64,000 bases of DNA from Candidatus Helarchaeota archaeon. Lineage in GTDB: Archaea > Asgardarchaeota > Lokiarchaeia > Helarchaeales > HEL-GB-A. Positions 26,838 through 61,348 of the stretch are shown here, in pieces (within the stretch, counting starts at the first letter, position 1; every line of letters starts with the position of its first letter). The stretch lies in assembly GCA_013375455.1 (NCBI GenBank), contig JABXJT010000017.1, positions 1 to 64,000 of the forward strand, in the 5' to 3' direction. The position numbers and the translations under genes are program-made. Under the pieces are notes generated by a model. It was not told the origin of the DNA. It did not search any database and saw nothing but the letters and a program-made list of their open reading frames with translations.

Positions 26838-26848
26838 TAACACTGTTA
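26838..26848. promoter_or_regulatory. TAACANTGTTA operator, HTH regulator 1
   Basis: TAACACTGTTA, a perfect match to the window's recurring palindrome, 18 bases before the ATG of HTH regulator 1. Confidence 0.7.
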
Positions 26849-27094
26849 AAATACACAGGTTCACAAATATAAAAACTTCGTGTAATAATTACCTATAAAT
26901 ACGGACGACTTTTATACGACAAGAATTGTAAGAAAGTGATTCAATTCTTTTGAAAGATATATCGATTTTCTTTAAATGTCTATTTCAATGATTCATCCAA
27001 CACTTGAATTTTCCCGAAAATTATAAGTTCCTTTATGCATGAAAGATGCGTGTTGCAAAGGAATGATATTTATTTGCGTTTTGGTCATTGATTA

Positions 27095-27514
27095 TTAAAT
27101 ACTCCTGGAAATTCTAGATAACGGATGCCCTTTTGCTTTCATTTCAAGTTCGTGGAACCACCCAAAAGGAAGACGTATAGTTGTATACCCTTTAAGTTGC
27201 AAAATAGAACTTATTTCTTTTAGAGAATTTAATCCAAACTGCGGAGAACTTAATTCTCCAAAGAGATGTGCAAAAGGGAGGATAACAATATTTGAAACTT
27301 TAAGTTGATTAGATATTTTTTCTATTTCAATTATGCTTTTTTCTATGAATATGGGATTTGTTTCATCCCTTTTTTCTATGCTAATAAAGAGAACTAATGC
27401 ATTTTCAATTTTATCTTCTTTTTGCCTATCCGTTGGTTCTTCAAATACTTTGGAGCGGCCCCTTTTAGTTACTTTGAACCAAAAATACTCCACGTGAAAA
27501 GACAGAAATCTCAT
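27095..27514 (-). CDS. Free-standing archaeal threonyl-tRNA synthetase editing domain
   Basis: A 139-residue protein that corresponds over its whole length to the N-terminal editing domain of archaeal ThrRS, a D-aminoacyl-tRNA deacylase-like fold that hydrolyses Ser-tRNA(Thr). Matching blocks are ALVLFISIEKRDETNP (about 40-55), VSNIVILPFAHLFGELSSP (about 74-92), LPFGWFHELEMKAKGHPLS and the terminal SRISRSI. No catalytic ThrRS domain follows: the frame ends with this domain. It lies 67 bp after cysK. It may act in trans on Ser-tRNA(Thr), or hydrolyse another misacylated tRNA. Confidence 0.88.
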   Translation of the reverse strand: MRFLSFHVEYFWFKVTKRGRSKVFEEPTDRQKEDKIENALVLFISIEKRDETNPIFIEKSIIEIEKISNQLKVSNIVILPFAHLFGELSSPQFGLNSLKEISSILQLKGYTTIRLPFGWFHELEMKAKGHPLSRISRSI

Positions 27515-27581
27515 TTTACCACGCTCAAAATAAAAATATATTGGTATTTCTGCGACTATCGCGCAAAAACCATCATTGTTT

Positions 27582-28520
27582 CTATATGTTGTATAATTCA
27601 GTCGTTAGATAACGTTCTCCTGTATCAGGAAGTACAACAACTATTGTATGTTCTTCCTGAAATTCTTTGGCTACCTCCAATGCCGCCCAAGCTGCTGCAC
27701 CTGAAGATATTCCAGAGAAAATTCCTTCCAATAAGGCTAACTTTCTGGCGGTTTTTGCTGCATTATCGTATGAAACTGTAATTACCCGATCATATATTGC
27801 TGTGTTGAGCACTTCTGGAATGAAACCAGCTCCAATTCCTTGTATTTTGTGGCCTCCGGGTTTACCTCCAGATAAAACTGGGGAATCAATTGGTTCGACT
27901 GCAAATATCTTAATATGTTGCCCTATTTTTTCTTTTAGAACTTCTCCAACACCTGTGATCGTGCCTCCAGTACCTATACCTGCCACGAACGCATCAATGT
28001 TTCCCCCGGTATCGTCTATAATTTCTTGGGCAGTTGTAGTTCTATGAATTTCCGGATTTGCCTTATTTTTAAATTGTTGCGGTATGAATACATTTCCTTC
28101 CGGTTTTGCCAATTCTTCTGCTTTTTCCACTGCGCCTTTCATTCCTTTTGCAGGATCAGTTAAAACTAAATTTGCACCAAATGCCTTCAATATTTTCCGT
28201 CGTTCCAATGACATGCTTGAGGGCATAGTTAGAGTCAATTTATAGCCTTTAGCTGCTGCAACAAGAGCTAAAGCTATCCCTGTATTCCCCGAGGTGGGTT
28301 CTATAATGTGATCTCCCTTTTTAATGATGCCCGCCTCTTCTGCAGCCTCTACCATTGACATTCCGATTCTATCCTTGACGCTTCCTCCAGGATTGAACGC
28401 CTCGATCTTCGCTAGAATAGTAGGTTTTAGCCCTTCATTTATTTTATTCAGTCTAACAAGGGGGGTTCGTCCAATAGTTTCAATTATATTATTATATACC
28501 TTTTTATATACCTTCGCCAA
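27582..28520 (-). CDS. cysK: Cysteine synthase (O-acetylserine sulfhydrylase family)
   Basis: A 312-residue fold-type II PLP enzyme. The PLP lysine is in [11 protein letters not shown] (about 44-54), the substrate loop is [11 protein letters not shown] (about 75-85) and the phosphate loop is [10 protein letters not shown] (near 184). It makes cysteine from O-acetylserine and sulfide, or from a carrier-bound thiocarboxylate as in CysM-type enzymes. TTG start inside the end of cysE (17-bp overlap). It is last of the sulfur operon that begins with the threonine synthase. Confidence 0.93.
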
Positions 28521-29337
28521 AAAACATCAACTCCTTAAAATCTTTTCTTTTTTTCTCTCCTTTTAATTCAATCATCTCATCTTCTAATTCGAGAAGGCGA
28601 TCTCTTAATTTTTTAATTACCTCCGCAACGGGATCTGGAAGATCTCCATGTTCTAAATCTATCTTTGGAATTTTCTTCCCATTTCGAGCGACTATTCGCC
28701 CAGGAACTCCAACTACTACGGAATTATCAGGAACGTCTTTCGTTACAACAGAGTTGGCACCAATTCTAACATTGTCACCAATTTTAACAGGCCCTAATAC
28801 TTTAGCACCCGTTCCAATAACCACATTGTTTCCAACAGTGGGATGCCTTTTAACTTGATCTGAGCTAGTCCCGCCTAACGTAACATTCTGATAGATCGTT
28901 ACATTATCACCGATCTTAGCTGTTTCACCAATAACTGTTCCGCTACCATGATCAATAAAGAAATCCTTTCCAATCTCAGCTCCAGGATGAATCTCGATCC
29001 CTGTAATTTGCCTTGCAATGTGAGAAAGATATCGGGGGACAAAGGGAAGTCCGATTTCCCAGAAGAAATGAGCCACTCTATGTAAAAGAATAGCTTGAGT
29101 ACCAGGATAGGACGTAAGGACTTCTACTATACTTCTAGCAGCTGGGTCTTTTTGAAAAGCCGTACGCACATCTGACCCAAAGGAATCTAAAATAGATTCA
29201 AGGTGTTTCTTAATTTTTTCAAAATCCGTTTCCTTTATACCAAACTCCAAATTCAACAAGCATTTTGCACAAAACTCACTTTTTTCCTTTGCGGATAATT
29301 TATCTCCACATCCTAGGCATGCTAAACTTTGCTCCAA
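28504..29337 (-). CDS. cysE: Serine O-acetyltransferase with N-terminal zinc finger
   Basis: A 277-residue CysE. The C-terminal two thirds are left-handed beta-helix hexapeptide repeats ([43 protein letters not shown]), with the catalytic His in DHGSG. The first 30 residues contain [15 protein letters not shown], a four-Cys zinc finger not found in the usual enzyme. It acetylates serine for cysteine synthesis. TTG start preceded by GGTGA. Confidence 0.92.
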
Positions 29338-29377
29338 TTTTATCTCACCAATTCCTACATCAATTACTAAGGTAATC

Positions 29378-29617
29378 TTAATACTTTTTTATCACAATTT
29401 TCCACTCATTTTCATTTATTGGATTGACACTAACAATCTCACCTAGATTCTGTTCTTTCACGCTACGTGGTATGTTTTCCACGGCTGGGGGGTAATCAAC
29501 AATCACTTCTAGAATACTATGCTCGTCAATTTCTTCTAAATTAAGTTTAGTCAATACAAACGTGTATGGGCATACTTCACCCGTTAAATTAATCGTTTTA
29601 ACATTACTAATCGTCAT
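29378..29617 (-). CDS. TusA-like sulfur carrier protein
   Basis: A small protein of about 79 residues with the TusA/SirA fold pattern and the sulfur-carrying Cys in [13 protein letters not shown] (the family's CPxP motif with Thr instead of the second Pro). TusA proteins relay persulfide sulfur between enzymes. ATG 29617 is chosen behind GAGTGAG; a TTG six codons upstream overlaps the stop of the ThiF-like gene. Its place between the E1-like and cysE genes suggests delivery of sulfur to the carrier protein or to the cysteine synthase. Confidence 0.85.
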
Positions 29618-29631
29618 TTTACTCACTCTTT

Positions 29632-30441
29632 TCAAGTTTCACATGTTTCACCTTTATAATAATCAAAAATCTTCAGTAAATCTACAGAATCTTTACCGCA
29701 GGCTTTACAATTTTCAGATTTTTGGATAGTAACCTTTTGAAAATCTAAATTTGCAATGTCTATCGATAAAAGGCCATTAGTAATGAGTTTCCCAAATTTG
29801 AGGAGATATTTAATTACCTCACTTGCTTGGATGGACCCAATAATCCCCGGAACTGCACCGAAAACTCCTGCTTGAGAGCAGCTAGGAACCATGCCAGGGG
29901 GTGGTGGGGCAGCAAAAATACACCGGTAACAAGCAGTTTTTTTTGGGATGACCGTTAATATTTGCCCGTCATACTTGAGAATCCCAGCAATCGTAAAGGG
30001 AACCTCTTCGATAATGCAGGCATCATTAATAATATATTTCGTGGCGAAATTATCAGAGCCATCAATGACATAATCGTAATGTTTGATAATTTCTCGAGCA
30101 TTCTTTGGGGAAAGTCGGGTTTCAATTGTTTGAACGGTGATATTCGGATTTATGGCCCTTAGTTTCTCTGCCACAGAAAGCGTCTTGGGTCGACCGATAT
30201 CCTTAGTGAAATGCAAAATTTGTCGTTGTAAATTACTTACATCTACTTCATCGAAGTCTAATATTCCTAATTTTCCAATCCCCGCTGCTGCAAGATATAC
30301 AGACGCAGGACAACCCAATCCCCCAGCTCCCACAATAAGAACGGAGGATTCTCTCAATTTCTTTTGTCCTTTTCCGCCCACTTCCTTCATAACGATTTGC
30401 CTACTATACCTTCGGATCTCTTCTTCGGTAAATCCAAACAT
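29632..30441 (-). CDS. ThiF/MoeB-family E1-like adenylyltransferase
   Basis: A 269-residue E1-like enzyme. The nucleotide loop is VGAGGLGCPASVYLAAAGIG (about 37-56), with the DFDEVDVSNLQRQ switch and ATP arginine region; zinc-binding Cys pairs are CYRC (about 170) and CKAC (about 245), and a likely catalytic Cys lies in PSCSQAGVFG. Such enzymes adenylate the Gly-Gly end of MoaD/ThiS carriers, priming thiocarboxylate formation. No rhodanese domain is fused, but a TusA gene follows. It overlaps the DUF169 gene by 55 bp. Confidence 0.9.
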   Translation of the reverse strand: MFGFTEEEIRRYSRQIVMKEVGGKGQKKLRESSVLIVGAGGLGCPASVYLAAAGIGKLGILDFDEVDVSNLQRQILHFTKDIGRPKTLSVAEKLRAINPNITVQTIETRLSPKNAREIIKHYDYVIDGSDNFATKYIINDACIIEEVPFTIAGILKYDGQILTVIPKKTACYRCIFAAPPPPGMVPSCSQAGVFGAVPGIIGSIQASEVIKYLLKFGKLITNGLLSIDIANLDFQKVTIQKSENCKACGKDSVDLLKIFDYYKGETCET

Positions 30442-31094
30442 TCATTCACCTCACTTTTTTTTAAATTGGTTTCAAATTCTTGCATTTTCTCGGCTTTTTT
30501 GAGAGCGGCATAGAGGTCTTCAAAAAGATGGAATGGTATCCCGAAAACTAATTCATTATCTGTATATCCTGAAAAGATTCGCGCGCCATGGCAAAGCATT
30601 GATAGATTCGGGGTTTTTTCTGTAATAGTATGAGCCACAATCTCGCCGCAGACTGCCATAGATGCTCCAAAAGTAGCTCCAACTTTTCTTTTTGATATTC
30701 TACGCAGCGCACCTACTAAAATCATGGCTTGTTTCGCATTCACGATGAACGCGATGGAATCTATTGGATATTTTAAGTAGTTTACGGGGGCAAGAACGAC
30801 AGATTTTGTGGTGGCTGGCTTTATTCGAGGATTGAAATCAACGTATTCCGGCTCTGTAAATCCTAAACAAATATACGGTGTATAACAATCTGGATCTTCA
30901 TCAGCCTTAAGCACTATTTTTTTTCCTTGGGCAGCAAGGCGGACATAATAACAAAACCGTTTCTTACAATTGATAACTTGAAAAGATTGATCCCAAGAGG
31001 ATTCATTATTTTGAACGATTTTGATTCCAACTGGATAATAATCCGCAATCAAGATCTTCTGAATGTGCTTAATTTTAAAGCTGAGAGAATCCAT
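30387..31094 (-). CDS. DUF169 family protein
   Basis: A 235-residue protein of the DUF169 (COG2043) family. Its pattern includes DYYPVGIKIV, a Cys pair in CKKRFCYYVRLAAQGK, DPDCYTPYICLGF and the C-terminal CGEIVAHTI..LSMLCHGAR..SGYTDNELVFGIP. The conserved cysteines may bind a metal. Function is not established; here it lies between a MoaD-like carrier and its E1, suggesting a role in the same sulfur-transfer route. Both neighbours are in the same operon. Confidence 0.82.
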   Translation of the reverse strand: MDSLSFKIKHIQKILIADYYPVGIKIVQNNESSWDQSFQVINCKKRFCYYVRLAAQGKKIVLKADEDPDCYTPYICLGFTEPEYVDFNPRIKPATTKSVVLAPVNYLKYPIDSIAFIVNAKQAMILVGALRRISKRKVGATFGASMAVCGEIVAHTITEKTPNLSMLCHGARIFSGYTDNELVFGIPFHLFEDLYAALKKAEKMQEFETNLKKSEVNECLDLPKKRSEGIVGKSL

Positions 31095-31124
31095 TAGTCA
31101 TAACTCATCCTTTATCTATTATTT

Positions 31125-31409
31125 TTAGCCTCCCGCTGCAGCTGGTAGTAATGATATCTCATCTCCGTCAGTCAGGCTAGTTTCAAGTCCTTCAAGATGT
31201 CTAATATCTTTTCTGTTCACTGCTACAATTATATATCTTTTAATTTTGCCTGAATTTTTATCGAAAATTCTATTTTTCAGGGTTTCACCATAAATTGTGA
31301 AAATTTTTCCCAAGGCGTCTTGTACTGTTCCATCGATGTCAATTTCGATCGTATTGGATTGGGTTATATCTTGAAGAGATGAAAAAAATAGGAATTTAAC
31401 TTTCGACAA
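31125..31409 (-). CDS. MoaD/ThiS-like ubiquitin-fold sulfur carrier
   Basis: A 94-residue beta-grasp protein ending in Ala-Ala-Ala-Gly-Gly. The Gly-Gly tail is adenylated by an E1 and converted to a thiocarboxylate. The pattern VKFLFFSSLQDIT at the start and ISLLPAAAGG at the end fits MoaD/SAMP-like carriers. It overlaps the threonine synthase gene by 14 bp and is followed by DUF169 and the E1 gene, so it is most likely the sulfur donor for the cluster's amino acid synthesis (by analogy to actinobacterial CysO) rather than molybdopterin synthesis. Confidence 0.88.
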   Translation of the reverse strand: MSKVKFLFFSSLQDITQSNTIEIDIDGTVQDALGKIFTIYGETLKNRIFDKNSGKIKRYIIVAVNRKDIRHLEGLETSLTDGDEISLLPAAAGG

Positions 31410-32664
31410 GAATCACATCCTCCTTATAGTGAGTATAATTTTTTAATGCCTCTATTGTGGGTTTAATTATTGGGATTTCTTGGATTAAGTTCGTAATAGT
31501 TTGATGTGCTTTGAATCCGTTTCCAGTTATGAGCACTACGACGCTTTCATCTTTGGCAATTTCACCCTGTTCGACCAACTTGATTAAACCAGCTAAAGTA
31601 ACGCCACCAGCAGGCTCCGTGTAAATGCCCTCTTTTTTAGCTAGCAATTTAATGGCATCAGTTATTTCTAAATCCGTCGGAGCGGCAGCAGAGCCTTTAG
31701 TCGAATTAATGATGTTGATGGCCTCGTATCCACTCGCAGGATTTCCTATCGCTAAACTCTTGGCTATGGTTTGGGGTTTTTCAATTGGAAAGATGTCATT
31801 TTTTGTGTGGCGTGACGTGACAATCGGCGCACAGCCTACAGGTTGGGCACCTGAAATACGAGTTCCGTTTGTTTTAGTGAACCCTATTGTATCTAATTCA
31901 TATAACGCTCTATAAACAGAGCATAATAATGCCCCACTACCCATGGGAATGATGATATTATCCGGCGGGGTCCAATTTAACTGTTCACAAACTTCGAAAG
32001 CAATTGTCTTGGATCCTTCCGTATAATAGGGGCGAACATTTATGTTTAGAAGACCCCAGTTGAAAGTTTCAGCAGCAAGAACACCTAATCGATTGGCATC
32101 ATCATAAGTTCCTTCGATTCCAACAATATTAGCTCCGTGGATTGCCGTCTGCGTAATTTTACTGCTCTCAATGGTAGACGGCACAAAAATATAGCAGGGA
32201 ACACCTGCTTTAGCAGCGTGAGCTGCCGTTGAAGCTGCCAAATTCCCAGTGGAGGCACAGCCGACGGTATGAATTCCTAATTCCAAGCATTTCGAGACTC
32301 CAACTGAGGCTGGACGGTCTTTGAATGATAATGTAGGATTGATCGTATCGTTTTTGACATACAATTCTCTCAATCCTAACTCAGCACCTAAATTTTCACA
32401 GCGCTGTAACGGCGTGCCCCCATCATTTAAGGACACTATATGAGTCGAGTCTGTAAGGGGGAGTAGTTCTATATAGCGCCAATGATTAAAAATCCGGGTT
32501 CTTAGGTCTTCTTTTGAAATTTGTTCTTTAATGACTTCAAAATCATATTTAACTTTTAAGGGACTCCAACATTCTTTACAAATTGTATGTAATTCAAGGG
32601 GATATGTTGCGCCACATTCTGGACACTCTAATGCAATTACTCTTTCTGAACTCGTTTTTATCAC
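31396..32664 (-). CDS. Threonine synthase-like PLP enzyme
   Basis: A 422-residue fold-type II PLP enzyme. An N-terminal C4 zinc ribbon (CPEC..CKEC, residues 14-34) precedes the catalytic core with the PLP lysine in NPTLSFKDRPASVG (about 108-121), CASTGNLAAS, and the IPMGSGALL loop. Threonine synthase uses O-phosphohomoserine. As first gene of a sulfur-carrier operon it might instead make a thiol product such as homocysteine (O-phosphohomoserine plus carrier sulfur) or cysteate. GTG start within a GGTGAT sequence. An operator lies 26 bp upstream. Confidence 0.85.
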   Translation of the reverse strand: MIKTSSERVIALECPECGATYPLELHTICKECWSPLKVKYDFEVIKEQISKEDLRTRIFNHWRYIELLPLTDSTHIVSLNDGGTPLQRCENLGAELGLRELYVKNDTINPTLSFKDRPASVGVSKCLELGIHTVGCASTGNLAASTAAHAAKAGVPCYIFVPSTIESSKITQTAIHGANIVGIEGTYDDANRLGVLAAETFNWGLLNINVRPYYTEGSKTIAFEVCEQLNWTPPDNIIIPMGSGALLCSVYRALYELDTIGFTKTNGTRISGAQPVGCAPIVTSRHTKNDIFPIEKPQTIAKSLAIGNPASGYEAINIINSTKGSAAAPTDLEITDAIKLLAKKEGIYTEPAGGVTLAGLIKLVEQGEIAKDESVVVLITGNGFKAHQTITNLIQEIPIIKPTIEALKNYTHYKEDVILVES

Positions 32665-32689: not shown

Positions 32690-32700
32690 TAACAATGTTA
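32690..32700. promoter_or_regulatory. TAACANTGTTA operator, sulfur operon
   Basis: TAACAATGTTA, a perfect palindrome copy, 25 bases upstream of the GTG start of the threonine synthase-like gene. Confidence 0.75.
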
Positions 32701-32805: not shown

Positions 32806-32816
32806 TAACATTGTTA
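32806..32816. promoter_or_regulatory. TAACANTGTTA operator, substrate-binding-like gene
   Basis: TAACATTGTTA, a perfect copy, 53 bases before the ATG of the substrate-binding-like gene. Together with the site at 32690 it frames the divergent promoter region. Confidence 0.75.
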
Positions 32817-32869: not shown

Positions 32870-33832
32870 ATGTCTGATTTTAATGATTTAAAAAAACTCC
32901 GAATAGGATTTCTTTCAACCATTTATCATACATCATTTATTTTAATGTGTAATAATTGGATTGAGAAGAAGCTGGGAATTGAAGCTGAATGGGAATTACA
33001 CGGGACGGGTCCAAGTATAATTGGGAATTTTTTAAACAAAAAATTAGATATTGGATATATCGGATTACCACCCACAATTATTGGGATAGATAAAGGAGCT
33101 ACTATCAAATGTGTTGCAGGTGGTCATGTTGAAGGAACGATAATGGTAGCATTTGATCATTTTAAAGCTTATCATGAGGTTAATCAAAATTTAAATGAGT
33201 TATTTCACCAATTTCAAAATAAGGTCATTGCCGTTCCAAAAAAAGGATCAATTCACGATGTAATCCTACGGAATTTAATTAACCAGCTTGGAATGGAGGA
33301 TGCAATTCAAATATTGAATTATGATATTGCCGATTTTATCTTAATAGACATGCTGGAGAATCAAGTAGATGGAGCAGTTGGGACGCCGGCATTAGCTGCT
33401 TTTTTGGCGCAACATCTTAACACGAAAACCATTATTTCTACCACAAATTTGTGGCCTTATAACCCAAGTTACGGGATTGTATGTAGTGATTCTTTGATCA
33501 ATGTTCATCCTGAAATTGTTGAAGCTTTCATCGAGCTACATCGAGATGCCTGTAAGGCATTACGAGAGACTCCCAAGCGAATTGCTAAATTAGTTGAAGA
33601 TGAGATTGAATTAATCAAAGAAGATTTTATCTTAGAAACTTTTAAAATCTCTCCGAAATATTGTGCTGCATTGCCACCAGAATATGTAAACTCTACAATG
33701 AAATTTGTAGAAACACTCCGTGAATTAGGCTATATTGAGATGAATTTAGGAAAAGCAGTAATTTTTGATTTTACATTTATAGAAAGAGTTCATCCTGAAA
33801 AACATCATTATGAAGAAGGGATTAAAGCCTGA
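32870..33832 (+). CDS. Cytosolic NMT1/SsuA-like substrate-binding protein
   Basis: A protein of about 320 residues with the type II periplasmic-binding fold of NMT1/THI5/SsuA-like proteins: LRIGFLSTIYHTSFILMCNNW, NFLNKKLDIGYIGLPPTIIG, and an ENQVDGAVGTPALAAFLAQ hinge segment. No signal peptide or lipobox and no adjacent ABC permease or ATPase: it appears to be cytosolic. It may bind a sulfonate, a thiazole/pyrimidine intermediate, or another small ligand. ATG 32870 is used rather than the TTG three codons upstream. Overlaps the next gene by 23 bp. Confidence 0.78.
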   Translation: MSDFNDLKKLRIGFLSTIYHTSFILMCNNWIEKKLGIEAEWELHGTGPSIIGNFLNKKLDIGYIGLPPTIIGIDKGATIKCVAGGHVEGTIMVAFDHFKAYHEVNQNLNELFHQFQNKVIAVPKKGSIHDVILRNLINQLGMEDAIQILNYDIADFILIDMLENQVDGAVGTPALAAFLAQHLNTKTIISTTNLWPYNPSYGIVCSDSLINVHPEIVEAFIELHRDACKALRETPKRIAKLVEDEIELIKEDFILETFKISPKYCAALPPEYVNSTMKFVETLRELGYIEMNLGKAVIFDFTFIERVHPEKHHYEEGIKA

Positions 33833-35536: not shown

Positions 35537-35560
35537 GATTGCTATCAATCCAAAAAAGGC

Positions 35561-36375: not shown

Positions 36376-36398
36376 TAACAGTGTTTATAACACTGTTA
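36376..36398. promoter_or_regulatory. Tandem TAACANTGTTA operators, thi4
   Basis: TAACAGTGTTT (36376-36386, one mismatch) and TAACACTGTTA (36388-36398, perfect) lie one base apart, 12 bp centre to centre, 29 bases before the thi4 ATG. The spacing suggests cooperative binding of two dimers. Confidence 0.75.
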
Positions 36399-36592: not shown

Positions 36593-36973
36593 TTATTTAC
36601 AGAAGGGTATTTTATCACAATCCAAAATGGAGGCAGGGTCTACTCCTTCAAGGTATTTTTCTACGAATTTAGGGCGAATCATCATACAAATAATACAAAT
36701 TTCTTTTATGACCTCCATATCAGACATTTTATTTCCTATAAGCTTCTCAATTAAGTCCTGTACTGATTTAAATGCTGGTTGCTCTCTTACAATCTCAAGC
36801 CCTCTTGCTCCACGTTCTCCACGCAAGTAATGACTTACAGAGGGTTGTGTAAGCCCTAATAAACTAGCAATTTCGTTTTGATTTTTTCCATATTTTTCGT
36901 GTAATTCCTGAACTATCACGGCCCTTACTGCAGGTATGATTAGTTTAACATTAATTTCACATGGAGTTTTCAT
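36593..36973 (-). CDS. HTH regulator with cysteine cluster, paralog 2
   Basis: A 126-residue paralog of the regulator at 26479-26820: TPCEINVKLIIPAVRAVIVQEL, an XRE-like HTH (NQNEIASLLGLTQPSVSHYLRG) and C-terminal cysteines CIICMM and a final DCDKIPFC. The conserved N-terminal Pro-Cys-Glu-Ile and C-terminal Cys pairs in both paralogs suggest a metal- or Fe-S-sensing switch. It lies upstream of the first hdr operon and downstream of thi4. Divergent ends from both; an imperfect operator (37071-37081) sits 98 bp upstream. Confidence 0.82.
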   Translation of the reverse strand: MKTPCEINVKLIIPAVRAVIVQELHEKYGKNQNEIASLLGLTQPSVSHYLRGERGARGLEIVREQPAFKSVQDLIEKLIGNKMSDMEVIKEICIICMMIRPKFVEKYLEGVDPASILDCDKIPFCK

Positions 36974-37070: not shown

Positions 37071-37081
37071 TAACGATGTTA
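37071..37081. promoter_or_regulatory. Imperfect TAACANTGTTA operator, HTH regulator 2
   Basis: TAACGATGTTA, one mismatch to the palindrome, 97 bases upstream of the ATG of HTH regulator 2. Confidence 0.5.
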
Positions 37082-40192: not shown

Positions 40193-40193
40193 T

Positions 40194-40949: not shown

Positions 40950-40965
40950 TCATTTCCATCCTAAT

Positions 40966-41841: not shown

Positions 41842-41842
41842 T

Positions 41843-47534: not shown

Positions 47535-47582
47535 GTAACTTCTTCACCTAAATTCATTTTTATTATTTGAACCTAGTTCATT

Positions 47583-50585: not shown

Positions 50586-50586
50586 T

Positions 50587-51342: not shown

Positions 51343-51357
51343 TTTCTATTACACTCC

Positions 51358-52233
51358 TTATTCACTAATTTTAGCCATAATCTTTTTAGGTTTAATCCGG
51401 TGGAGATTCAATCCTAGACCTTTGGGATTAAGTCCAAAAGCTATTCCTAATAGTTCAGTTAAGTGGATCGGAGCAATTTGGTATTGTTCCTTATATTTCC
51501 GTTGGATGTCAAACTGGCCTAAATCAAACGTGAAATAACACATTGGGCAGGCTAAAACGAGACCATCCACGTCTAATTCTTTTAGAGAAATTAATTTCTG
51601 ACGAGGAATTTCATCGGCAGCCTTGTCATCGACGCCCTTGAGCGAACCACCACAACAAACGTATTTTCCTTCATATTCCACGGTTTTCGCACCTAGTAAT
51701 TCAACAATTTCATCAATAGACCGAGGAATTTCAGGGTCATCGAATTCCACCACGCTATGGGGTCGTATTAAATGGCATCCATAGAATGTGCCGAAAACCA
51801 TATCGGTTAATGGTCTTTTAATATTAGCCTGGATTTTCTCACGGATTTTATCTTCATTTATTACTTGTACAAAATGTTTCACTTCGATTGTTCCCTTAAA
51901 TTCTTTTCCAATTTCTTTTAGAATCTCATTGATTTTCTTTCGATCCGCTTCATCTTCTTTCAAATGTTTATTAGCTTTCTTTAGATTCTTAAAGCACCCA
52001 TTACAGAGAGTAATAATATCTAAATTTCGTTCTTCGGCGAGACAAAGGTTTCTGGCAGCTAATGCTAAAGCAGTATCATAAGAAACAGAGGAAACGACTA
52101 CAGGCGCACAACAATGAAAATTTGGTTCACGCTCAATTTGAATTCCCAAAATTTCGCACACTTGTATGAATGAAGCTTCAAAACTTGGGTCCTTGGCTAA
52201 TACGGTGCAACCAGGGAAAAATAAAAACTTCAT
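51358..52233 (-). CDS. HdrB-like subunit, block B
   Basis: A 291-residue HdrB-like protein with two cysteine-rich domains: CTVLAK, FHCCAPVVVSS, LCNGCFKNL, then YGCHLIRPH, VCCGGSL and ACPMCYFTF. The first CCG is CCA in this protein and in block A. It would hold noncubane clusters that cleave a disulfide. Between hdrC (6 bp upstream) and mvhD. Confidence 0.92.
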   Translation of the reverse strand: MKFLFFPGCTVLAKDPSFEASFIQVCEILGIQIEREPNFHCCAPVVVSSVSYDTALALAARNLCLAEERNLDIITLCNGCFKNLKKANKHLKEDEADRKKINEILKEIGKEFKGTIEVKHFVQVINEDKIREKIQANIKRPLTDMVFGTFYGCHLIRPHSVVEFDDPEIPRSIDEIVELLGAKTVEYEGKYVCCGGSLKGVDDKAADEIPRQKLISLKELDVDGLVLACPMCYFTFDLGQFDIQRKYKEQYQIAPIHLTELLGIAFGLNPKGLGLNLHRIKPKKIMAKISE

Positions 52234-52239
52234 TATTAA

Positions 52240-52815
52240 TCACTCCTTTTTTTTCATTGGGAAATCTGTATTTTCGAAAATTTGGTCTATTTCCTTTAAG
52301 ACATCACCTGGAACAGGACCGACTCTTGGTAAATTTAGTTTTTCTCTTCTAACCTCTACTGCTTCTGGAACCTCTGTCACTCGACCAGTTGTCTTGATTG
52401 CATTTGCAGCAAATTTTATGTGTGTGGGAATAATTCCTTTTTTAGCTGCCATATTGCGCAAAGTTATCCATATTGCTGGTAATTCTACTCCTTGCGGGCA
52501 TCTTTCCGCGCAAAAATAGCATTCCGTGCATAACCAAATAATATTATCATTTAAAACTTCATCCCTTAATCCGAAAATAATTTTTCGGATTAATTTCTTC
52601 GTATTCTGACCAAAATCTGTTACGGGGCAGCCCGACACGCAAGTTCCACACTGATAGCAATAATACACGTTCTGGTGGCTCAATTCCTTAACTTCATCCG
52701 GAAAAGTGTAGTCAAGAGTATCATCGTCGAGGATTTCTACTAATTCTTCTTTACTAGATGCTTTAGGTCCTTCAAATTCTTCTTTCATAGGTGCTTTGCT
52801 TTCTTCATTTTCCAC
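52240..52815 (-). CDS. HdrC-like Fe-S subunit, block B
   Basis: A ferredoxin-type protein of about 191 residues with CYQCGTCVSGCPVTDF and CTECYFCAERCPQG. The GTG at 52815 is favoured, since GGGTGAG lies just upstream; a GTG three codons earlier falls inside that site. Its N-terminal 50 residues are acidic and variable. Second half shared with the block A copy. Confidence 0.9.
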   Translation of the reverse strand: MENEESKAPMKEEFEGPKASSKEELVEILDDDTLDYTFPDEVKELSHQNVYYCYQCGTCVSGCPVTDFGQNTKKLIRKIIFGLRDEVLNDNIIWLCTECYFCAERCPQGVELPAIWITLRNMAAKKGIIPTHIKFAANAIKTTGRVTEVPEAVEVRREKLNLPRVGPVPGDVLKEIDQIFENTDFPMKKKE

Positions 52816-52836
52816 AAATCTCACCCTTCATTTTTT

Positions 52837-53700
52837 TTAAACATTTACTTTATTTAGAATACCATTAAGTTGGTTTATGCGTTCATTCAACGCCAAATCT
52901 TGTGGGTTATAACCCATTGCCAAACCAATAAGGTCTGGCAAATAAATAGTACTAATTTGAATTCGGCCATCATTTTCTTTTAAATCGTTTATGGCCTTAT
53001 TGAATCGATTGAAACAATAAGGGCAATTTACAATGATGGCGTCGACATCAAGTTTTTTCAGACTTTCTATGATATTATAGTTGAATTTTGTTTCAATTTC
53101 TGATAAACAACTTACAAGGCCCCCACAGCACGAATATTTATCTTTATAATTTATATTCTGGGCTCCTGTAATTTCTATAATTTTATCTAAACCTGAAATA
53201 TATGAAAAATCAAAAATATCTTTCAATTGACTTCTAAGATGGCATCCCAAGAAAGATACGACTTTTAAATCATTAAGGGGTTTTTTAACATATTTTTTAA
53301 TTTCTTCTAATCCAACAAATTCCGTTAGAATTTGCAATAGATTCTTAATTTCAGTGGATCCTTTAAATTCTTTTCCAAAATTCTTTAGAATTGAATTTAC
53401 GTTGTTTCTTAATTTAGAATTATTTTTTAAGAGATTATTCGCATTATTAAGAGTTTTAAAACACCAACTACAAAGAGTAAAAATAGGCTTGTTTCTCTCT
53501 TCACCAATGCAAATATTTCGTGCATTTAAAATTATACCAGAAGTCGTATCTAATGAGGATACGAGAGTAGGACCACAACAACTGAAATTCTGCTCATCTA
53601 AAACTGAAACCTTTAGTTCTTTTAATATTAACTTAGTAGAATATTCAAAATACGGATCAGCCGTAAGTACTTTGCAACCGGGAAACAGTAAGTACTCCAT
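52837..53700 (-). CDS. Additional divergent HdrB-like subunit
   Basis: A protein of about 287 residues of the HdrB family with complete cysteine motifs (CKVLTAD, FSCCGPTLVSS, LCSWCFKTL; LGCHLRS, YSCCGGLVS, NCPYCFNRF), but little similarity outside them to the block A and B copies. ATG 53700 is preceded by GGTG. It has no HdrC of its own and lies between HdrA copy 4 and hdrC of block B, so it may give HdrA copy 4 a different substrate. Confidence 0.85.
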   Translation of the reverse strand: MEYLLFPGCKVLTADPYFEYSTKLILKELKVSVLDEQNFSCCGPTLVSSLDTTSGIILNARNICIGEERNKPIFTLCSWCFKTLNNANNLLKNNSKLRNNVNSILKNFGKEFKGSTEIKNLLQILTEFVGLEEIKKYVKKPLNDLKVVSFLGCHLRSQLKDIFDFSYISGLDKIIEITGAQNINYKDKYSCCGGLVSCLSEIETKFNYNIIESLKKLDVDAIIVNCPYCFNRFNKAINDLKENDGRIQISTIYLPDLIGLAMGYNPQDLALNERINQLNGILNKVNV

Positions 53701-53721
53701 TTTAACAAACACCAATCATAA

Positions 53722-56700
53722 TCATACAACGAGGCCCGCTTTAAGTTGGGAAATTATTTCTTTATCGGTAAAATGCGGAATTGTTATTGCACGTTGAGGG
53801 CAACTCGATCCGCAGGTTCCACATCCTTTACACATTGTTGAAATTACTTCGGCTCTCTTCCCCGATTCAGTCTTGTTTATGATAATTGCTTCAAAGGGAC
53901 ATACTGATGAGCATAAACCACAACCGATACAGAGGTCTTTGGATATTTCAGCAGTTATGGGTTCACCTTTAATTCTTACCTTGCTAAGTAGAGTGCATGC
54001 TCTCCCAGCAGCTCCCATTGCTTGAGAAATTGATTCATTTACTCCTCTTGGTGAATGGGCTAACCCACAGACAAAAATTCCGGCAGTGCTGAAATCATTG
54101 GGTCTTAACTTAACGTGAGCTTCCAAAAAGAAGCCATGCTTGCCCAAGGGTACTTTCAACATTTTTGAGAGAATTTCATTACCTTCATTCGGAATTATGG
54201 CAGCGCTGAGCACCAGATAATTTGGCTTCATTTTAATATATCTTTTAATTACATTATCAAAGACAGATACTACTAACTTACCATTTTCTTCAGTAACCTC
54301 TGGTAATTGTGAGTCGTTATAATGAATGAAAATGACACCCAACTCTCTCGCTTTTCGATAAAGTTCTTCTTTAAATTGATATGTCGTTATTTCCTTGTAA
54401 ATTATCACGACTCTTGTCCTAGGATTTTGGGTTTTTATTCTAATTGCGTTTTTGATTGCCTTAGTACAACATACGCGACTACAATAAGGACGTTCTTCAA
54501 TTCTCGATCCAATACATTGGATCATCATTACCAACCTTGCATCTAGCTTATCTTCTGCAAGAAGTTTTTCTAATTCGGATTGTAAAATGACTTTATCATT
54601 CTTTCCAAATAAATACTCAGTCGGAGTGTATTCCTTGGCACCCGTGGCGACAATTATTGTTCCATTTTTAAGTTGTTGAGTTTCGTGTGTGTCATTATTT
54701 TCTATTGTGATAGTGAAATTTCCCACATACCCCTCAATTGATTTTATTTCACTATTCAAAAATGTCTGAATCATTTCGTGATTTTTAACATTTTCAATCA
54801 TGCTTTGTAAGAATTTCTGTGTATCTTCAAAATTTTCATTATAAAATATTTTAGTATTCATATTTCCTCCAAATTTTTTTTCTTGCTCAATTAAATAAAC
54901 GGGAAATCCTTGATCTGCGACTTCTAAGGCGGCAGTTAAACCTGCTATTCCGCCACCGATTACAGCACATTTTTGAATCATATCATTAATGGGCTCTTCT
55001 AAAGGTCTTATTAAAGCGGCTTTCGCTGCGGCCATAGCGACTAAATTTTTTGCTTTTTCCGTTGCTTTTTCTGGTGCATCTGGATGAACCCAAGAACAAT
55101 GTTCTCTGATATTCGCCATTTCAAATAGGTATCTATTCAACCCTGCCTCTCGAATTGAACTTTGGAATAAAGGTTCATGAGTTCTTGGGGTGCATGATGC
55201 AACCACTACTTTATTCAAATTGTATTCCTTGACAATTTCCTGAATTCGAGTCGTGGAATCGCTCGAACACATGTATAGATTATCTTCAGCAAAAACAACA
55301 TTTGGGAGTGTCTTTGCATATTCGGTGACCTCTTTTACATCAACAACGCGAGCGATGTTAATCCCACAATGGCATATAAAAACCCCAATTCGTGGTTCAG
55401 TTTCATCGAATTCAAGTTCTGGTGGGAATTCTTTTACGGTACTTAACGCGTATCTTTGGTCTGAAACGATGCTGGTTGCCTCTACCGCTGCCCCACTTGC
55501 TTGAATAATAGTGTCAGGGATGTCTTGGGGTCCTTGACAACCTCCAGTTAAGTAAATTCCAGGGCGTGATGATTTGATTTCATAAAAATCTTGAGTATCA
55601 CAAAAGCCGTATTGATTCAAATCTATATTTAAGATTTTACTTAAATTATCTAATGATTTAGAAGGTTTTAAGCCAGTAGATAAGACAAGAATATCAAAAT
55701 CTTTCTCTTCGATCGCCTCATCTTCACGCTCGTACCTTATAATTATCTTATTTTCAACCTGGTTTATGGATCCTATACGACACCTAGTGAAAACAATGCC
55801 CAGTTCCTCTGCTTTTTGCTGATATTCATAAAACCCTTTCCCAAAATTTCGCATATCCATAAAATAAATGACACATTCAATCTCGGGATGGTGATCCTTC
55901 ACGATAATTGCTTGTTTAATTGCATACATACAGCAGACAGAGGAACAGTAACTCATATTGAACCTTTCATCTCGGGACCCAAAACATTGGAGCCAAGCGA
56001 TCTGTTTTGGAATTTGATTATCTGATGGCTTAACGATATGCCCGCCGTAGGGACCAGATGCACTCATAACTCTTTCAAATTCTAAACTTGTCATTATATT
56101 GGGGTTGTGAATGTATTGGAATTGTCTTTGAAGTGCGGGATCAAAAAGATCATAACCGATTGCAACTATTATAGAACCAACTTTAAGTTCTTCGAATTTC
56201 TCTTTATCTTCATAATTAATTGCTTGAGCCTCGCAATTTTTCTCACAAACCTTACAAACACCTTTAGTTAAATAGAGGCACTCTTTCGCATCAATCAGAT
56301 AGACCGGGGGTATCGCTTGCGGAAACGGGATGTGGATGCTCTTGCGCATATCCAGGTTCATATTAAATTCATCTTTCACCTTTTTTGGACATTTCTCTGC
56401 ACAGGTTCCACAATTTCTACATTTTTCTTCATCAACATATCTTGGTTTTCTGACGACCTTTACTGTAAAATTACCTGCTTCACCAGATACACCTGCAACG
56501 ACCGAATACGTTAACAACTCGATATTGGGATGATTTGCAACTTCCACCATTTTTGGGGCTAGAATGCACATCGAACAATCATTTGTTGGAAATGTTTTAT
56601 CTAATTGCGCCATGTGACCTCCGATACTTGCAGATTTCTCGACAATATAAACTTTAAAGCCCATTTCTGCGCAATCTAACGCTGCTTGAATTCCGGCTAT

Positions 56701-56742
56701 GCCTCCGCCAATTACTAAAACTGCGCCGACTGCCTCTCTCAA
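53722..56742 (-). CDS. Double HdrA-like flavoprotein, copy 4
   Basis: A 1006-residue protein, the most distant of the four: FAD loop VIGGGIAGIQA, TFPTNDCSMC, CRNCGTCAEKCP, then an unusual cluster CLYLTKGVCKVCEKNC, a second FAD domain (AVIGGGIAGLTA), and C-terminal CIGCGLCSSVCP and CKGCGTCGSSCP. TTG start without a clear binding site. First gene of the seven-gene operon (copy 4, HdrB-like, hdrC, hdrB, mvhD-wHTH, copy 3, copy 2). Double operator 61 bp upstream. Confidence 0.9.
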   Translation of the reverse strand: MREAVGAVLVIGGGIAGIQAALDCAEMGFKVYIVEKSASIGGHMAQLDKTFPTNDCSMCILAPKMVEVANHPNIELLTYSVVAGVSGEAGNFTVKVVRKPRYVDEEKCRNCGTCAEKCPKKVKDEFNMNLDMRKSIHIPFPQAIPPVYLIDAKECLYLTKGVCKVCEKNCEAQAINYEDKEKFEELKVGSIIVAIGYDLFDPALQRQFQYIHNPNIMTSLEFERVMSASGPYGGHIVKPSDNQIPKQIAWLQCFGSRDERFNMSYCSSVCCMYAIKQAIIVKDHHPEIECVIYFMDMRNFGKGFYEYQQKAEELGIVFTRCRIGSINQVENKIIIRYEREDEAIEEKDFDILVLSTGLKPSKSLDNLSKILNIDLNQYGFCDTQDFYEIKSSRPGIYLTGGCQGPQDIPDTIIQASGAAVEATSIVSDQRYALSTVKEFPPELEFDETEPRIGVFICHCGINIARVVDVKEVTEYAKTLPNVVFAEDNLYMCSSDSTTRIQEIVKEYNLNKVVVASCTPRTHEPLFQSSIREAGLNRYLFEMANIREHCSWVHPDAPEKATEKAKNLVAMAAAKAALIRPLEEPINDMIQKCAVIGGGIAGLTAALEVADQGFPVYLIEQEKKFGGNMNTKIFYNENFEDTQKFLQSMIENVKNHEMIQTFLNSEIKSIEGYVGNFTITIENNDTHETQQLKNGTIIVATGAKEYTPTEYLFGKNDKVILQSELEKLLAEDKLDARLVMMIQCIGSRIEERPYCSRVCCTKAIKNAIRIKTQNPRTRVVIIYKEITTYQFKEELYRKARELGVIFIHYNDSQLPEVTEENGKLVVSVFDNVIKRYIKMKPNYLVLSAAIIPNEGNEILSKMLKVPLGKHGFFLEAHVKLRPNDFSTAGIFVCGLAHSPRGVNESISQAMGAAGRACTLLSKVRIKGEPITAEISKDLCIGCGLCSSVCPFEAIIINKTESGKRAEVISTMCKGCGTCGSSCPQRAITIPHFTDKEIISQLKAGLVV

Positions 56743-56802: not shown

Positions 56803-56826
56803 AAACATTGTCATAAAACAATGTTA
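56803..56826. promoter_or_regulatory. Double operator of the long hdr operon
   Basis: AAACATTGTCA (56803-56813, two mismatches) and AAACAATGTTA (56816-56826, one mismatch), 13 bp centre to centre. The 24-bp unit read on the minus strand is almost the same as the unit at 57060. Confidence 0.7.
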
Positions 56827-57059: not shown

Positions 57060-57083
57060 TAACATTGTTTTATGACATTGTTA
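57060..57083. promoter_or_regulatory. Double operator of frhB-vhuD
   Basis: TAACATTGTTT (57060-57070, one mismatch) and TGACATTGTTA (57073-57083, one mismatch), 13 bp apart, ending 46 bases before the frhB-like ATG. Confidence 0.7.
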
Positions 57084-57129: not shown

Positions 57130-58287
57130 ATGGTGGCATCTACCGATAAGATTGCTGCAGAAGGAGATGAATTTAAAACCTTTAAAGATCTTATCAAAGA
57201 AGTTCATGCAAAAGGAATATGCGGACAATGTGGAGGATGCGTTTCGTTTTGTTCTGCGTCAGAATTCAGTGCTATTAAAATGGGAGAAAATGGGATTCCA
57301 GTTTTTGATAACGAAGAAAATTGTGTTAAATGTGGATTATGTTATTTAATTTGCCCTCAAATTGATGCACTCAATCAGGAATTAAAAGAGAAATTTGAAT
57401 GGAAATTTCCTATCGGGAAAGTACGTCGAATTGCGTCAGCAAGAAACACGGACCCGCAAATTGTTGAAGTTGCAACGGATGGTGGCGTAGTCACAGGAAT
57501 TTTGATGTATTTACTCGAGAAAAAATTAATAGATGGGGTAATTGCATCCAAAAAAATAGCTCCATTTAAACGCGTAGCTGCCATCATTAAAACGAAGAAG
57601 GAATTATTGGATACCGTTGGGACCAGGGTATGCGACCTTACCCAGATGGATCAAGAGTTAGGCAACTATTCTACTTATTCACCAATTAGTTTTGAATTAA
57701 AAAAATATATGCACAAAGATATATTAAGGCTGGCCGTCGTTGGAACACCGTGCCAAATTCACACGATTAGAAAGATGCAGATTTTGGGCGTGATACCTGC
57801 ACACATTATTAAATATATGCTTGGATTATTCTGCACTGAAAATTTTTATTTTACTGAAAAAACTCGGAAGAAATTTGAAGAAAAACACAAATTTCGCTTT
57901 GAAGATATTAAAAAAATGAATTTAAAGGAAGAATTAAGCATATATCTTAAAGATGGAAGAGTTGTTCGGATTCCTTTTAGTGAATTAGATGAGATAATGA
58001 GGGCTGCCTGTAGGGCGTGTGATGATTTTTCAAATGAATATGCAGATTTGTCATTTGGAGGATTGACCTCCCCGGAGGGATATACTACTACAATTTTAAA
58101 GACGAAAACGGGAGAAGATATTTATTATGGGGCATTACATTCGGGTTACATTGAAGAAAATGAGGAATTAAATAAACAAGTCGAAAAATCTAAAATGTTG
58201 GTTAAAATAATTAATTTCTCAAAATATAAAAGAAAGAGAGCAGCAGATTTTTTGAAACAAGTTAATAGAGAAAAAAATAATAGTTAA
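57130..58287 (+). CDS. FrhB-like F420/NAD(P)-type oxidoreductase beta subunit
   Basis: A 385-residue FrhB/FdhB-family flavoprotein. An N-terminal two-cluster ferredoxin (CGQCGGCVSFC, CVKCGLCYLICP) leads into the flavin domain with TDGGVVTGILMYLL, VVGTPCQIHTIRKM and CRACDDFSNEYADLSFGG. Family members pass electrons between F420, or in related enzymes NAD(P) or other donors, and Fe-S partners. Followed after 4 bp by a VhuD-like selenoprotein, so this pair is likely the electron input module of the Hdr complexes. Confidence 0.85.
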   Translation: MVASTDKIAAEGDEFKTFKDLIKEVHAKGICGQCGGCVSFCSASEFSAIKMGENGIPVFDNEENCVKCGLCYLICPQIDALNQELKEKFEWKFPIGKVRRIASARNTDPQIVEVATDGGVVTGILMYLLEKKLIDGVIASKKIAPFKRVAAIIKTKKELLDTVGTRVCDLTQMDQELGNYSTYSPISFELKKYMHKDILRLAVVGTPCQIHTIRKMQILGVIPAHIIKYMLGLFCTENFYFTEKTRKKFEEKHKFRFEDIKKMNLKEELSIYLKDGRVVRIPFSELDEIMRAACRACDDFSNEYADLSFGGLTSPEGYTTTILKTKTGEDIYYGALHSGYIEENEELNKQVEKSKMLVKIINFSKYKRKRAADFLKQVNREKNNS

Positions 58288-58291
58288 TAAA

Positions 58292-58759
58292 ATGGAGGTT
58301 AAAAAAATAGCAGGCAATAGCGAAATAATGAGTGAGAAGAAAGAAGAAGTAGCAAAATTTGAACCATTGATAACTTTTTTCGTTTGCAAGTGGTGTACAT
58401 ACGCAGCTGCCGATTTGGCAGGTTCTAGCAGACTTCAATATCCCCCTAATATCAGAATAGTCATGCTGCCGTGTACCGGAAAAATGGATGTTGTATATGC
58501 ACTAAAAGCTTTTGAACAAGGCATTGATGGCGTCCTTGTATCTGGCTGACTCAAGGAGCAATGCCACTATGTGGATGGCAACTTTAAATCCGAAAGGAGG
58601 ATAAAAATGGTCAAGAACATCTTGGAATCAATCGGAATCAATCCGGAACGCATAGAAATGCATTTTATTTCCGCTAGCATGTCCACAACATTCGTAAAAG
58701 TAATTGAAGATTTTGTAAAAAGATTAAAGGAACTGGGTCCGATAAAACCGAAAAAATGA
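58292..58759 (+). CDS. VhuD/MvhD-like selenoprotein with in-frame UGA (Sec)
   Basis: A 155-residue small MvhD-like protein read through an in-frame TGA at 58547-58549. CKWCTYAAADLAG and LPCTGKMDV precede it; the reading VSG-(TGA)-LKEQCHYVDGN aligns with VCGCPKDKCHNVDGN of the paralog at 44043, so the TGA replaces a Cys ligand position. The frame stays open for 69 more codons with paralog-like sequence. VhuD of some methanogens is a known selenoprotein at this site. ATG start, 4 bp after the FrhB-like gene. Ends at TGA 58757-58759. Confidence 0.85.
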
Positions 58760-58815
58760 TCTTTATAGAGAAAGTTTAGCTATAAAGTGATACCTTTGCA
58801 AGAGGTTTCGGTTTT
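58744..58815 (+). promoter_or_regulatory. Candidate SECIS element
   Basis: P1: AAAACCGAA (58744-58752) pairs with TTCGGTTTT (58807-58815). P2: CTTTATAG (58761-58768) pairs with CTATAAAG (58780-58787) around an 11-base loop containing AAA. At the base of P2, TGAT (58757-58760) faces TGAT (58788-58791), able to form the tandem sheared G-A pairs of a kink-turn core as in eukaryotic SECIS. P3: ACCTTT with AGAGGT (58792-58806). The 5' TGA is also the stop codon. The Cys paralog lacks any such structure after its stop. Confidence 0.6.
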
Positions 58816-60225: not shown

Positions 60226-60299
60226 AAGGTAAAGTTTTGTAGCTTGTAACCTAAGATTTATAATAATTCATTGAAACGAAGAAATCGAAGTGAAGTATT

Positions 60300-61301
60300 C
60301 TGAATGAGTGGAGGCTCCTCCGGCTGGAGAAATTACCGGGGTTAACGACTCAGACAATTTGGCATGCTTGTGGCCTTTATGCAGATATGAATCAAGATAT
60401 GAACATCATAATCCTAACAGAACCCACTGAAAAATTTGTATGTTGCGGGCAATCACAAAATGTTTCTGCCGAGATAGATGTTAAGTTCTGTAAAAAAAAT
60501 AATATAGGATATACGAGAAGGATTGCAGGGGGTACTACCGTATTTTTGGATGAAAATCAAATTTTTTATAATGTAATCCTATATGGTTATAATTTCCCCA
60601 CACCACTTAAAGCTCTATATAAGAAATCTTTAAAGGGTCCTATAGACTTTTACAACTCATTGAAATTAGAGGCATTCTTAAATAACTATAATGAAATATC
60701 TGTGGAAAATCGAAAAATTTCTGGGATAGGAGCATATTGTTTAGAAAAAACAGGTCTTGTCGTGGGAAACATCATTTTAGATTTTGATTATGATATGTGT
60801 GTTAAAGCGTTAAGATTTCCATCGGAGAATTTTAAATCTCTTTTTAGAAGATACCTCGAAAATTCAGTAACTTCAATTAAAAGGGAACTGCAAAAGGAGA
60901 TTCCGAAGGATGAAATTTATGATGGGTTAATTTCCACCTTTGAAAAGAATTTGAATATTAAATTAGTTGAAGATAAATTAACAAATTGGGAAATCAAAAA
61001 GAATAAAGAATTAGAAAAAGAATATCAAACTGAAAAATGGTTAAATCCGCATCGTGAGGATATGAAAAAAGAAAAAATATTTGTTAAAATAAGAAAAGGG
61101 CAATTCATTTTTCATTACACCCCATTAAGTGCAGAATTTGTAATTGAAAATAAAAAAATAACAGAGATAATCTGCGATTCTTCTTTGAAAGAAGTTTCAA
61201 CTTTAAAAGGGATTAATATTGATGAGATCTCCGAAAAAAATAGTCTTTTTCGAGATCTTAAAAAGAATCTGCTCAAATTCCAGGTTCTATCTGAAAATTA
61301 A
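60300..61301 (+). CDS. Lipoate-protein ligase A-like enzyme, non-ATG start or missing base
   Basis: About 333 residues in the LplA/BPL fold: RRIAGGTTVFLDENQIFYNV is the lipoyl-adenylate motif, and RKISGIGAYCL contains the catalytic Lys. The first ATG in frame (60387) would delete the family's opening strand, yet the upstream codons read NEWRLLRLEKLPGLTTQT, fitting the usual LplA N terminus. A CTG at 60300 precedes it. Alternatively an ATG at 60304 with one G missing (ATG-AGTGG for ATG-GAG-TGG) would give MEWRLLRLE. A residue-260 to 333 accessory domain is present. Confidence 0.8.
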   Translation: MNEWRLLRLEKLPGLTTQTIWHACGLYADMNQDMNIIILTEPTEKFVCCGQSQNVSAEIDVKFCKKNNIGYTRRIAGGTTVFLDENQIFYNVILYGYNFPTPLKALYKKSLKGPIDFYNSLKLEAFLNNYNEISVENRKISGIGAYCLEKTGLVVGNIILDFDYDMCVKALRFPSENFKSLFRRYLENSVTSIKRELQKEIPKDEIYDGLISTFEKNLNIKLVEDKLTNWEIKKNKELEKEYQTEKWLNPHREDMKKEKIFVKIRKGQFIFHYTPLSAEFVIENKKITEIICDSSLKEVSTLKGINIDEISEKNSLFRDLKKNLLKFQVLSEN

Positions 61302-61337
61302 TAAGGTTAAATTAGATTTAAAATTTAAATATTCCTT

Positions 61338-61348
61338 TAACAATGTTA
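61338..61348. promoter_or_regulatory. TAACANTGTTA operator, lipS pair
   Basis: TAACAATGTTA, a perfect copy, 21 bases upstream of the first radical SAM gene of the lipoate module. Confidence 0.75.

Follow-up and report, generated by a model that had tools for sequence, protein, structure and literature searches.

Ahead of genes for sulfur relay, thiazole synthesis, heterodisulfide reductase (Hdr) and lipoate synthesis, a contig of Candidatus Helarchaeota archaeon (assembly GCA_013375455.1, contig JABXJT010000017.1, positions 1 to 64,000; this whole 64-kb stretch is referred to as the window) carries copies of an 11-bp palindrome, TAACANTGTTA, which raises the question of whether these genes are under one control and which protein might exert it. 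To our knowledge, little is known about gene control in Asgard archaea. We found no description of this regulon among the papers listed on Helarchaeota regulators (by title), on the motif or on COG2522 (which we take to be the usual label for the PCE-helix-turn-helix (HTH) group discussed below), most subscription journals lying outside the coverage of the search. According to the portions of the source available to us (PMC6478937), Helarchaeota have a methyl-coenzyme M (CoM) reductase-like enzyme and hdrABC, which recycles the heterodisulfide of CoM and coenzyme B (CoB), and are proposed to oxidize hydrocarbons. We consider it likely, judging from sequence comparisons, that TAACANTGTTA is the operator of one or both of two HTH proteins encoded in the window, HTH1 and HTH2, acting as a self-repressing switch over sulfur and redox genes.

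We detected six perfect copies of TAACANTGTTA in the window, where 0.07 would be expected, and 15 copies with at most one mismatch, where 2.92 would be expected; at least six and at least 15 copies, respectively, were obtained in none of 100 shuffles. All six perfect copies are intergenic and lie 17-53 bp upstream of starts, at exactly the positions given in an earlier note on this DNA, which had also seen no copy in the first 26 kb. The latter observation holds for copies with no or one mismatch, as none occurs upstream of 26838, where other genes, such as those for Por subunits, HypD and HypF, are found. Matches inside genes, named in the same note as the outcome that would speak against a regulon, are confined, among the copies with at most one mismatch, to two one-mismatch copies (28767 and 37735); the remaining 13 of the 15 are intergenic, although by a gene list picked by hand 91% of the window is coding (binomial P ~1e-12). 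We then scored the sites with a symmetric 17-bp matrix (consensus TTATAACAnTGTTATAA) made from 14 sites, namely the 13 intergenic copies with at most one mismatch and the copy with two mismatches at 56803, a choice that was guided by the list in the earlier note and by distances to starts. When each site was left out in turn, 12 of the 14 outscored every non-site position, and the two marginal sites, 37071 and 42515, were equalled by three positions and one position, respectively. Among the mismatched copies previously listed, those at 42465 and in the hdr/frhB divergent region are therefore clear and those at 37071 and 42515 are marginal, but 44018 (two mismatches, 11.0 bits) and 42450 (two mismatches, below 9 bits) are noise on score, being indistinguishable from in-gene matches of 13.6 and 11.6 bits. 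Further, the window contains three tandem operator pairs with a step of 12-13 bp (36376/36388, 56803/56816 and 57060/57073), compared with 0.01 expected.

Both HTH genes are themselves preceded by the palindrome. HTH1 (26479..26820, minus strand; 113 residues, cysteines in PCE and CxxC motifs; the ATG at 26820 is the likely start) has a site perfect to TAACANTGTTA 17 bp upstream (26838..26848), and HTH2 (36593..36973, minus strand; 126 residues) has, 97 bp upstream (37071..37081), a site that is marginal on score, perfect to TAACnnnGTTA and one mismatch away from TAACANTGTTA. HTH matches occur in 95 of 227 Asgard genomes, and the upstream set, located with blastp, comprised the matches whose DNA was fetched (76 regions, including the two HTH genes of the window and two loci from non-Asgard records), with three loci left out that had less than 60 bp upstream (L038, L042 and L052). 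Among the matches listed, the closest named homologues belong to Candidatus Helarchaeota, and the best genome locus is that of Hel_GB_A (G001). Genes were assigned as stand-alone or fused by frame length, the presence of a ThiN domain being tested in two fused frames. Within 150 bp upstream of the 45 stand-alone HTH genes, TAACnnnGTTA was perfect in 18 (shuffles 0.2, maximum 1) and had at most one mismatch in 29 (shuffles 4.77, maximum 10), and the corresponding numbers for fused-length frames were 3 and 17 of 28 (shuffles 0.1 and 1.89). As the control, we used the upstream regions of other genes in related loci: after clustering at 80%, perfect copies preceded 17 of 49 HTH genes compared with 4 of 131 other genes (Fisher P 6e-8, a guide only because the compared genomes are still related), and copies with at most one mismatch preceded 31 of 49 compared with 17 of 131. 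The centre of the palindrome varies by lineage (e.g. GGT, GGC, TCC and AAT), which speaks against plain inheritance of one unaltered sequence. In G001, the HTH1 orthologue (71% identity) has a perfect copy 66 bp upstream, and an HTH2-type gene has one at 96-97 bp, near the 97 bp found for HTH2 itself. This HTH2-type gene falls on two contigs, and residues 1 to 39 are seen beside the site. In an mcrA-bearing relative (G004), the HTH gene is preceded at 47 bp by TAACAGTGATA, with one mismatch. We also note that this gene (L102, 1170-2700) is divergent from that of NadA (quinolinate synthase) and that a gene starting like NadA, matched by its start only, adjoins the HTH2-type gene of G001 (L112). 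The recurrence of the palindrome at HTH genes across the phylum supports the two HTH proteins, as had been suggested, as its probable binders, and the palindrome is most likely the autoregulatory operator of this HTH family, with the centre ANT in Helarchaeota.

To establish which other genes share the operator, we scanned 1.70 of the 5.8 Mb of G004 with the matrix made from window sites only, genes in relatives being called by a longest-frame script that gives approximate starts. The scan yielded eight intergenic matches of at least 16 bits, compared with a mean of 0.87 and a maximum of 4 for 60 permuted matrices, and 13 of at least 14 bits (permuted mean 3.6, maximum 9). On contig C11, 14 of the 15 intergenic matches of at least 12 bits fall within 37.7-96.7 kb, a cluster in which homologues of window proteins are encoded: ThrC (75% identity), the substrate-binding protein SBP (67%), the methanogenesis marker 8-like protein MMP8 (43%), CysE and CysK (70 and 71%) and HTH (46%). 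The order ThrC-ThiS-DUF169-ThiF-TusA is kept, CysE-CysK stands in a separate operator-bearing run, and the SBP/ThrC divergent region is arranged as in the window and carries a site, while the surrounding gene order differs. The genes behind the C11 matches include those of a ferredoxin-AIRS-ThiN-CysE-CysK run, an NAD(P)H-disulfide-oxidoreductase-like gene, a 2-hydroxyacyl-CoA-dehydratase-like gene, an MMP8/ThiI-like divergent pair, a geranylgeranyl-reductase-like gene (four sites) and, at the greater distance of 338 bp, a DsrE-cysteine desulfurase-like-NifU run. One site, at 87314, shares a few bases with a called start and was counted as in-gene for the matrix and as intergenic in the gene listing. 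Of the 11 perfect sites in G004, four are intergenic. Of the 12 in G001, seven are intergenic, two are doubtful owing to start or frame calls and three are in genes; a GlcD/TfrB-like/double-cubane-like run is preceded there by three sites, one of them perfect, and further sites lie upstream of CO dehydrogenase, metal ATPase and other genes. A perfect intergenic site at C3:28856 of G004 (L099, 8856) lies 122 bp upstream of a 160-residue gene; next on that strand come a 546-residue gene and, ~250 bp further on, an HdrA-like gene. This site is a single hint of an Hdr link common to relatives.

The comparison of conserved and unconserved sites points to a core of HTH autoregulation, sulfur relay and cysteine supply, and control of the Hdr and lipoate genes may be a peculiarity of the organism of the window. 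At 26 FlpD and 10 LipS2-type loci in relatives (at most one mismatch, ~1.5 kb on each side) we found one intergenic match, which precedes a 79-residue frame. At the Thi4 orthologues of G001 and G004 the best match scores 9.7 bits and is not credible. The tandem-pair pattern was not found in G001 to G004, with looser pairs present in G004. The earlier proposal that sulfur, thiazole, Hdr and lipoate genes share one control is thus partly supported, by the common operator in the window and by the sulfur core in G004, but does not extend generally to FlpD, LipS2 and Thi4, whose membership is seen in the window only.

Several observations weigh against the reading of TAACANTGTTA as an operator of HTH1 and/or HTH2 over such genes. 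First, no credible site stands directly upstream at the FlpD, LipS2 and Thi4 loci of G001 and G004, and the fetched flanks of five mcrA loci contain no site of at least 9 bits, on which ground control of mcrA was rejected. Second, perfect copies do not outnumber those of a reversed-pattern control (12 compared with 13 in G001 and 11 compared with 19 in G004), and the 20 intergenic matches of at least 12 bits in G004 are inside the permuted range (mean 12.2, maximum 27); among 60 relatives, 59 have at least one perfect copy, and some without a Helarchaeota-type HTH exceed their own control, so that the signal in relatives can be seen only from the placing of sites between genes, from their clustering and from the identity of the genes. 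Third, the palindrome is neither confined to HTH genes nor present at all of them, as the 4 perfect and 17 near-perfect upstream regions among 131 other genes indicate, as do the 16 of 45 stand-alone HTH genes whose matches have two or three mismatches and the non-Asgard homologues L002 and L003 (identical upstream match), which have two. Fourth, six of the 11 operator-bearing promoters of the window lack a clear TATA box 5' of the operator, TATA boxes being called by pattern only, and Foldseek matched no solved structure to the HTH fold at an E value of 0.001 or lower.

In the window, the operator precedes the following genes, assigned by family matches unless stated otherwise. The sulfur operon (ThrC-like, ThiS, DUF169, ThiF, TusA, CysE and CysK; 27582..32664, minus strand) has a perfect site at 32690..32700, 25 bp upstream of ThrC, and the divergent gene for an SsuA/NMT1-like SBP (32870..33832, plus strand) has another at 32806..32816, 53 bp upstream. 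The ThrC-like gene (31125-32664) overlaps ThiS and is followed by ThiF and TusA, and ThiS stands beside ThrC in two other Asgard genomes (L120 and L121), an adjacency that hints at thiocarboxylate-dependent (homo)cysteine synthesis. On the minus strand, thi4 (35561-36346) and the MMP8 gene (34664-35548; 208.3 bits, cut-off 232.7) lie behind the tandem pair 36376..36398 (12-bp step), whose perfect copy, 36388, is 41 bp upstream of the thi4 start and is separated from the other copy by a TATA-like sequence. Hdr block A (HdrC, HdrB, FlpD and HdrA; 37187..42415, minus strand) has one-mismatch sites 49 bp (42465..42475) and 99 bp (42515..42525, marginal) upstream, and the UbiA-family prenyltransferase gene (42794..43786, minus strand) has a perfect site 50 bp upstream (43837..43847). 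Hdr block B (HdrA, HdrB, HdrC, HdrB, FlpD, HdrA and HdrA; 44535..56742, minus strand) is read as a single operon, its two inner HdrA genes having no operator upstream; 44535-47534 and 47583-50585 were labelled HdrA from length, position and matches in common with HdrA-like genes. Sixty base pairs upstream of this block, and 3' of TTTATAAA, is the pair 56803 (two mismatches) and 56816 (one mismatch; 56803..56826, 13-bp step), and FrhB-FlpD (57130..58768, plus strand) has the pair 57060 and 57073 (57060..57083, 13-bp step) 46 bp upstream of FrhB and 3' of TTTATAAG, so that the two promoters have a nearly identical TATA-operator-pair layout. The LipS2-like and LipS1 lipoyl synthase genes (61370..63527, plus strand; LipS2 207 bits, below the cut-off of 270; LipS1 242.9 bits, cut-off 230) have a perfect site 21 bp upstream of LipS2 (61338..61348). 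Further families in the window are DUF6775 and a lipoate-ligase-like protein.

Four other features of these genes are recorded here. The FlpD frame behind FrhB (58292-58768) runs through an in-frame TGA and would encode full-length FlpD if this codon were read as selenocysteine (U86); a paralogue at 44165 has cysteine there. In the Cys-type gene (44060-44165), FlpD-like sequence continues upstream of the first ATG, GTG or TTG, and the site before it (44018..44028) is not credible on score. A selenium switch between the two paralogues was considered and dropped, the selenocysteine type lying behind a strong pair and the cysteine type having the weak site only. Four HdrA-type frames of ~1000 residues occur within 20 kb (37187-56742), two of them labelled as described above for block B. 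Finally, on contig C162 of G001 (L108), genes for LipS2 (73% identity) and LipS1 (61%) are divergent from a 190-residue frame that starts like Thi4, with no operator between them.

The geometry of the window promoters bears on the direction of control. At five of the 11 operator-bearing promoters (ThrC, HTH1, HdrA, FrhB and LipS2), the operator is 3' of the nearest TATA-like match, an arrangement that suits repression, as a protein bound there would cover the start point. This argues against the possibility, which we consider unlikely, that the protein is an activator or acts in both directions, even though the HTH2 site and the second site of hdr block A, at 97 and 99 bp, are far upstream of their starts. 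We think it improbable that the operator belongs instead to a regulator encoded elsewhere, of which the HTH genes would merely be targets. Other candidate regulators may be encoded in the genome outside the window, and gel shifts reported in the accessible part of the description of MtvA (PMC11826091) show TAACATTGTTA bound by this plasmid antitoxin, which means that more than one protein can use the word. However, many Asgard genomes have palindromes of this kind upstream of their own HTH gene, while among 29 ThrC upstream regions of other genomes (220 bp, G004 left out) none is perfect to TAACANTGTTA and two have one mismatch.

The HTH proteins themselves speak to a further alternative, in which a ThiR-like regulator acts on thi4, ThiS, ThiF and an NMT1/THI5-like protein and the regulon is essentially one of thiamine. 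Against the Pfam family HTH_3 (PF01381), HTH1 and HTH2 score 24.0 and 22.2 bits, the gathering cut-off being 23. Their PCE + CxxC pattern is common to the HTH1/HTH2 family and HTH-ThiN proteins, a single profile recovers both, and the palindrome (at most one mismatch) precedes 17 of the 28 fused-length frames; further, Thi4 is encoded in the window and ThiN genes occur in operator-led runs of both G004 and G001. Against this, HTH1 and HTH2 lack a ThiN match, whereas fused relatives match PF10120 in two of two cases tested; CysE, CysK, TusA, Hdr, FrhB, LipS and UbiA are non-thiamine targets; and the Thi4 orthologues of two relatives lack a credible site. We regard a thiamine regulon as very improbable. 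Lastly, a non-regulatory element, be it a repeat or one that serves structure or replication, as clustering in ~35 kb of the window and ~60 kb of G004 might suggest, can be dismissed almost entirely, because the flanks differ between most sites and the sites precede homologous genes in a distant genome with a different gene order.

We therefore return to an operator of HTH1 and/or HTH2, small stand-alone relatives of the HTH-ThiN DNA-binding part. The sites and their positions, their repeated occurrence at HTH genes and the retention of the sulfur core in a single distant relative were computed directly; we infer binding, repression and signal as follows. The HTH protein, probably a dimer, would bind the palindrome, with two adjacent dimers at the tandem pairs of 12-13 bp step, and when bound at or 3' of a TATA-like box would block transcription start, repressing its own gene and those for sulfur relay, cysteine, cofactors and thiol or iron-sulfur (Fe-S) electron transfer. 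The AlphaFold model of HTH2 is helical (mean predicted local distance difference test score 86; helices only by DSSP), a sequence search of solved structures gave two weak matches, and the dimer geometry is assumed because of the Foldseek result given above. In 52 homologues, Cys-93 and Cys-96 are invariant and Cys-5 is near-invariant, and these conserved residues suggest a thiol, metal or Fe-S sensor. The cysteines and the targets lead us to propose that a redox, metal, Fe-S or sulfur signal, by ligand loss or oxidation at the PCE/CxxC cysteines, would release the protein. More broadly, and as a possibility rather than an expectation, stand-alone and ThiN-fused archaeal regulators may share a self-regulating TAACnnnGTTA with a lineage-specific centre, and in mcrA-bearing Helarchaeota the cysteine-bearing stand-alone branch may have become a sulfur/thiol or Fe-S switch through which heterodisulfide-reductase electron transfer is coupled with sulfur carriers and with the synthesis of cysteine and lipoate. 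The HTH-gene footprint across the phylum and the second cluster in G004 go beyond what the earlier note had observed. Overall, the analysis puts forward a defined operator sequence, two proteins that may bind it and a set of genes that it precedes. It also suggests how operators might be recognized for many archaeal regulators that have yet to be characterised, and how, in archaea with a proposed ability to oxidize hydrocarbons, the supply of sulfur would be connected by regulation with the Hdr genes for electron transfer.

Three known systems resemble the proposed one in different respects. MtvA, the antitoxin of the Pseudomonas plasmid pPAD8, is described in the available text (PMC11826091) as a bacterial plasmid toxin-antitoxin autoregulator likened to MazE. 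Compared by operator word only, it has the identical 11-mer, which indicates that such a word can serve as an operator; the match is probably convergent and would imply no kinship. SurR of Thermococcales is comparable in outline, being a single archaeal protein that regulates operons for sulfur and electron transfer as well as its own gene, and has a CxxC motif. As far as the source at hand goes (PMC12162507), SurR is an ArsR-related winged helix with GTTn3AAC-type sites and the CxxC in its N-terminal DNA-binding domain, whereas the window proteins are HTH_3-like by their best Pfam match, with helices only in the HTH2 model, the core AACn3GTT and a C-terminal CxxC. The closest likeness in protein sequence is to ThiR (HTH-ThiN; fused proteins were so named from the domain pair alone), whose N-terminal part is homologous, with the same PCE and CxxC cysteines, and whose fused-length frames have TAACnnnGTTA with at most one mismatch upstream in 17 of 28 cases. 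HTH1 and HTH2 differ from it in lacking the ThiN domain and in having many sulfur and redox genes among their putative targets; as to thiamine genes, thi4 of the window has a site pair and thi4 of G001 and G004 no credible site.

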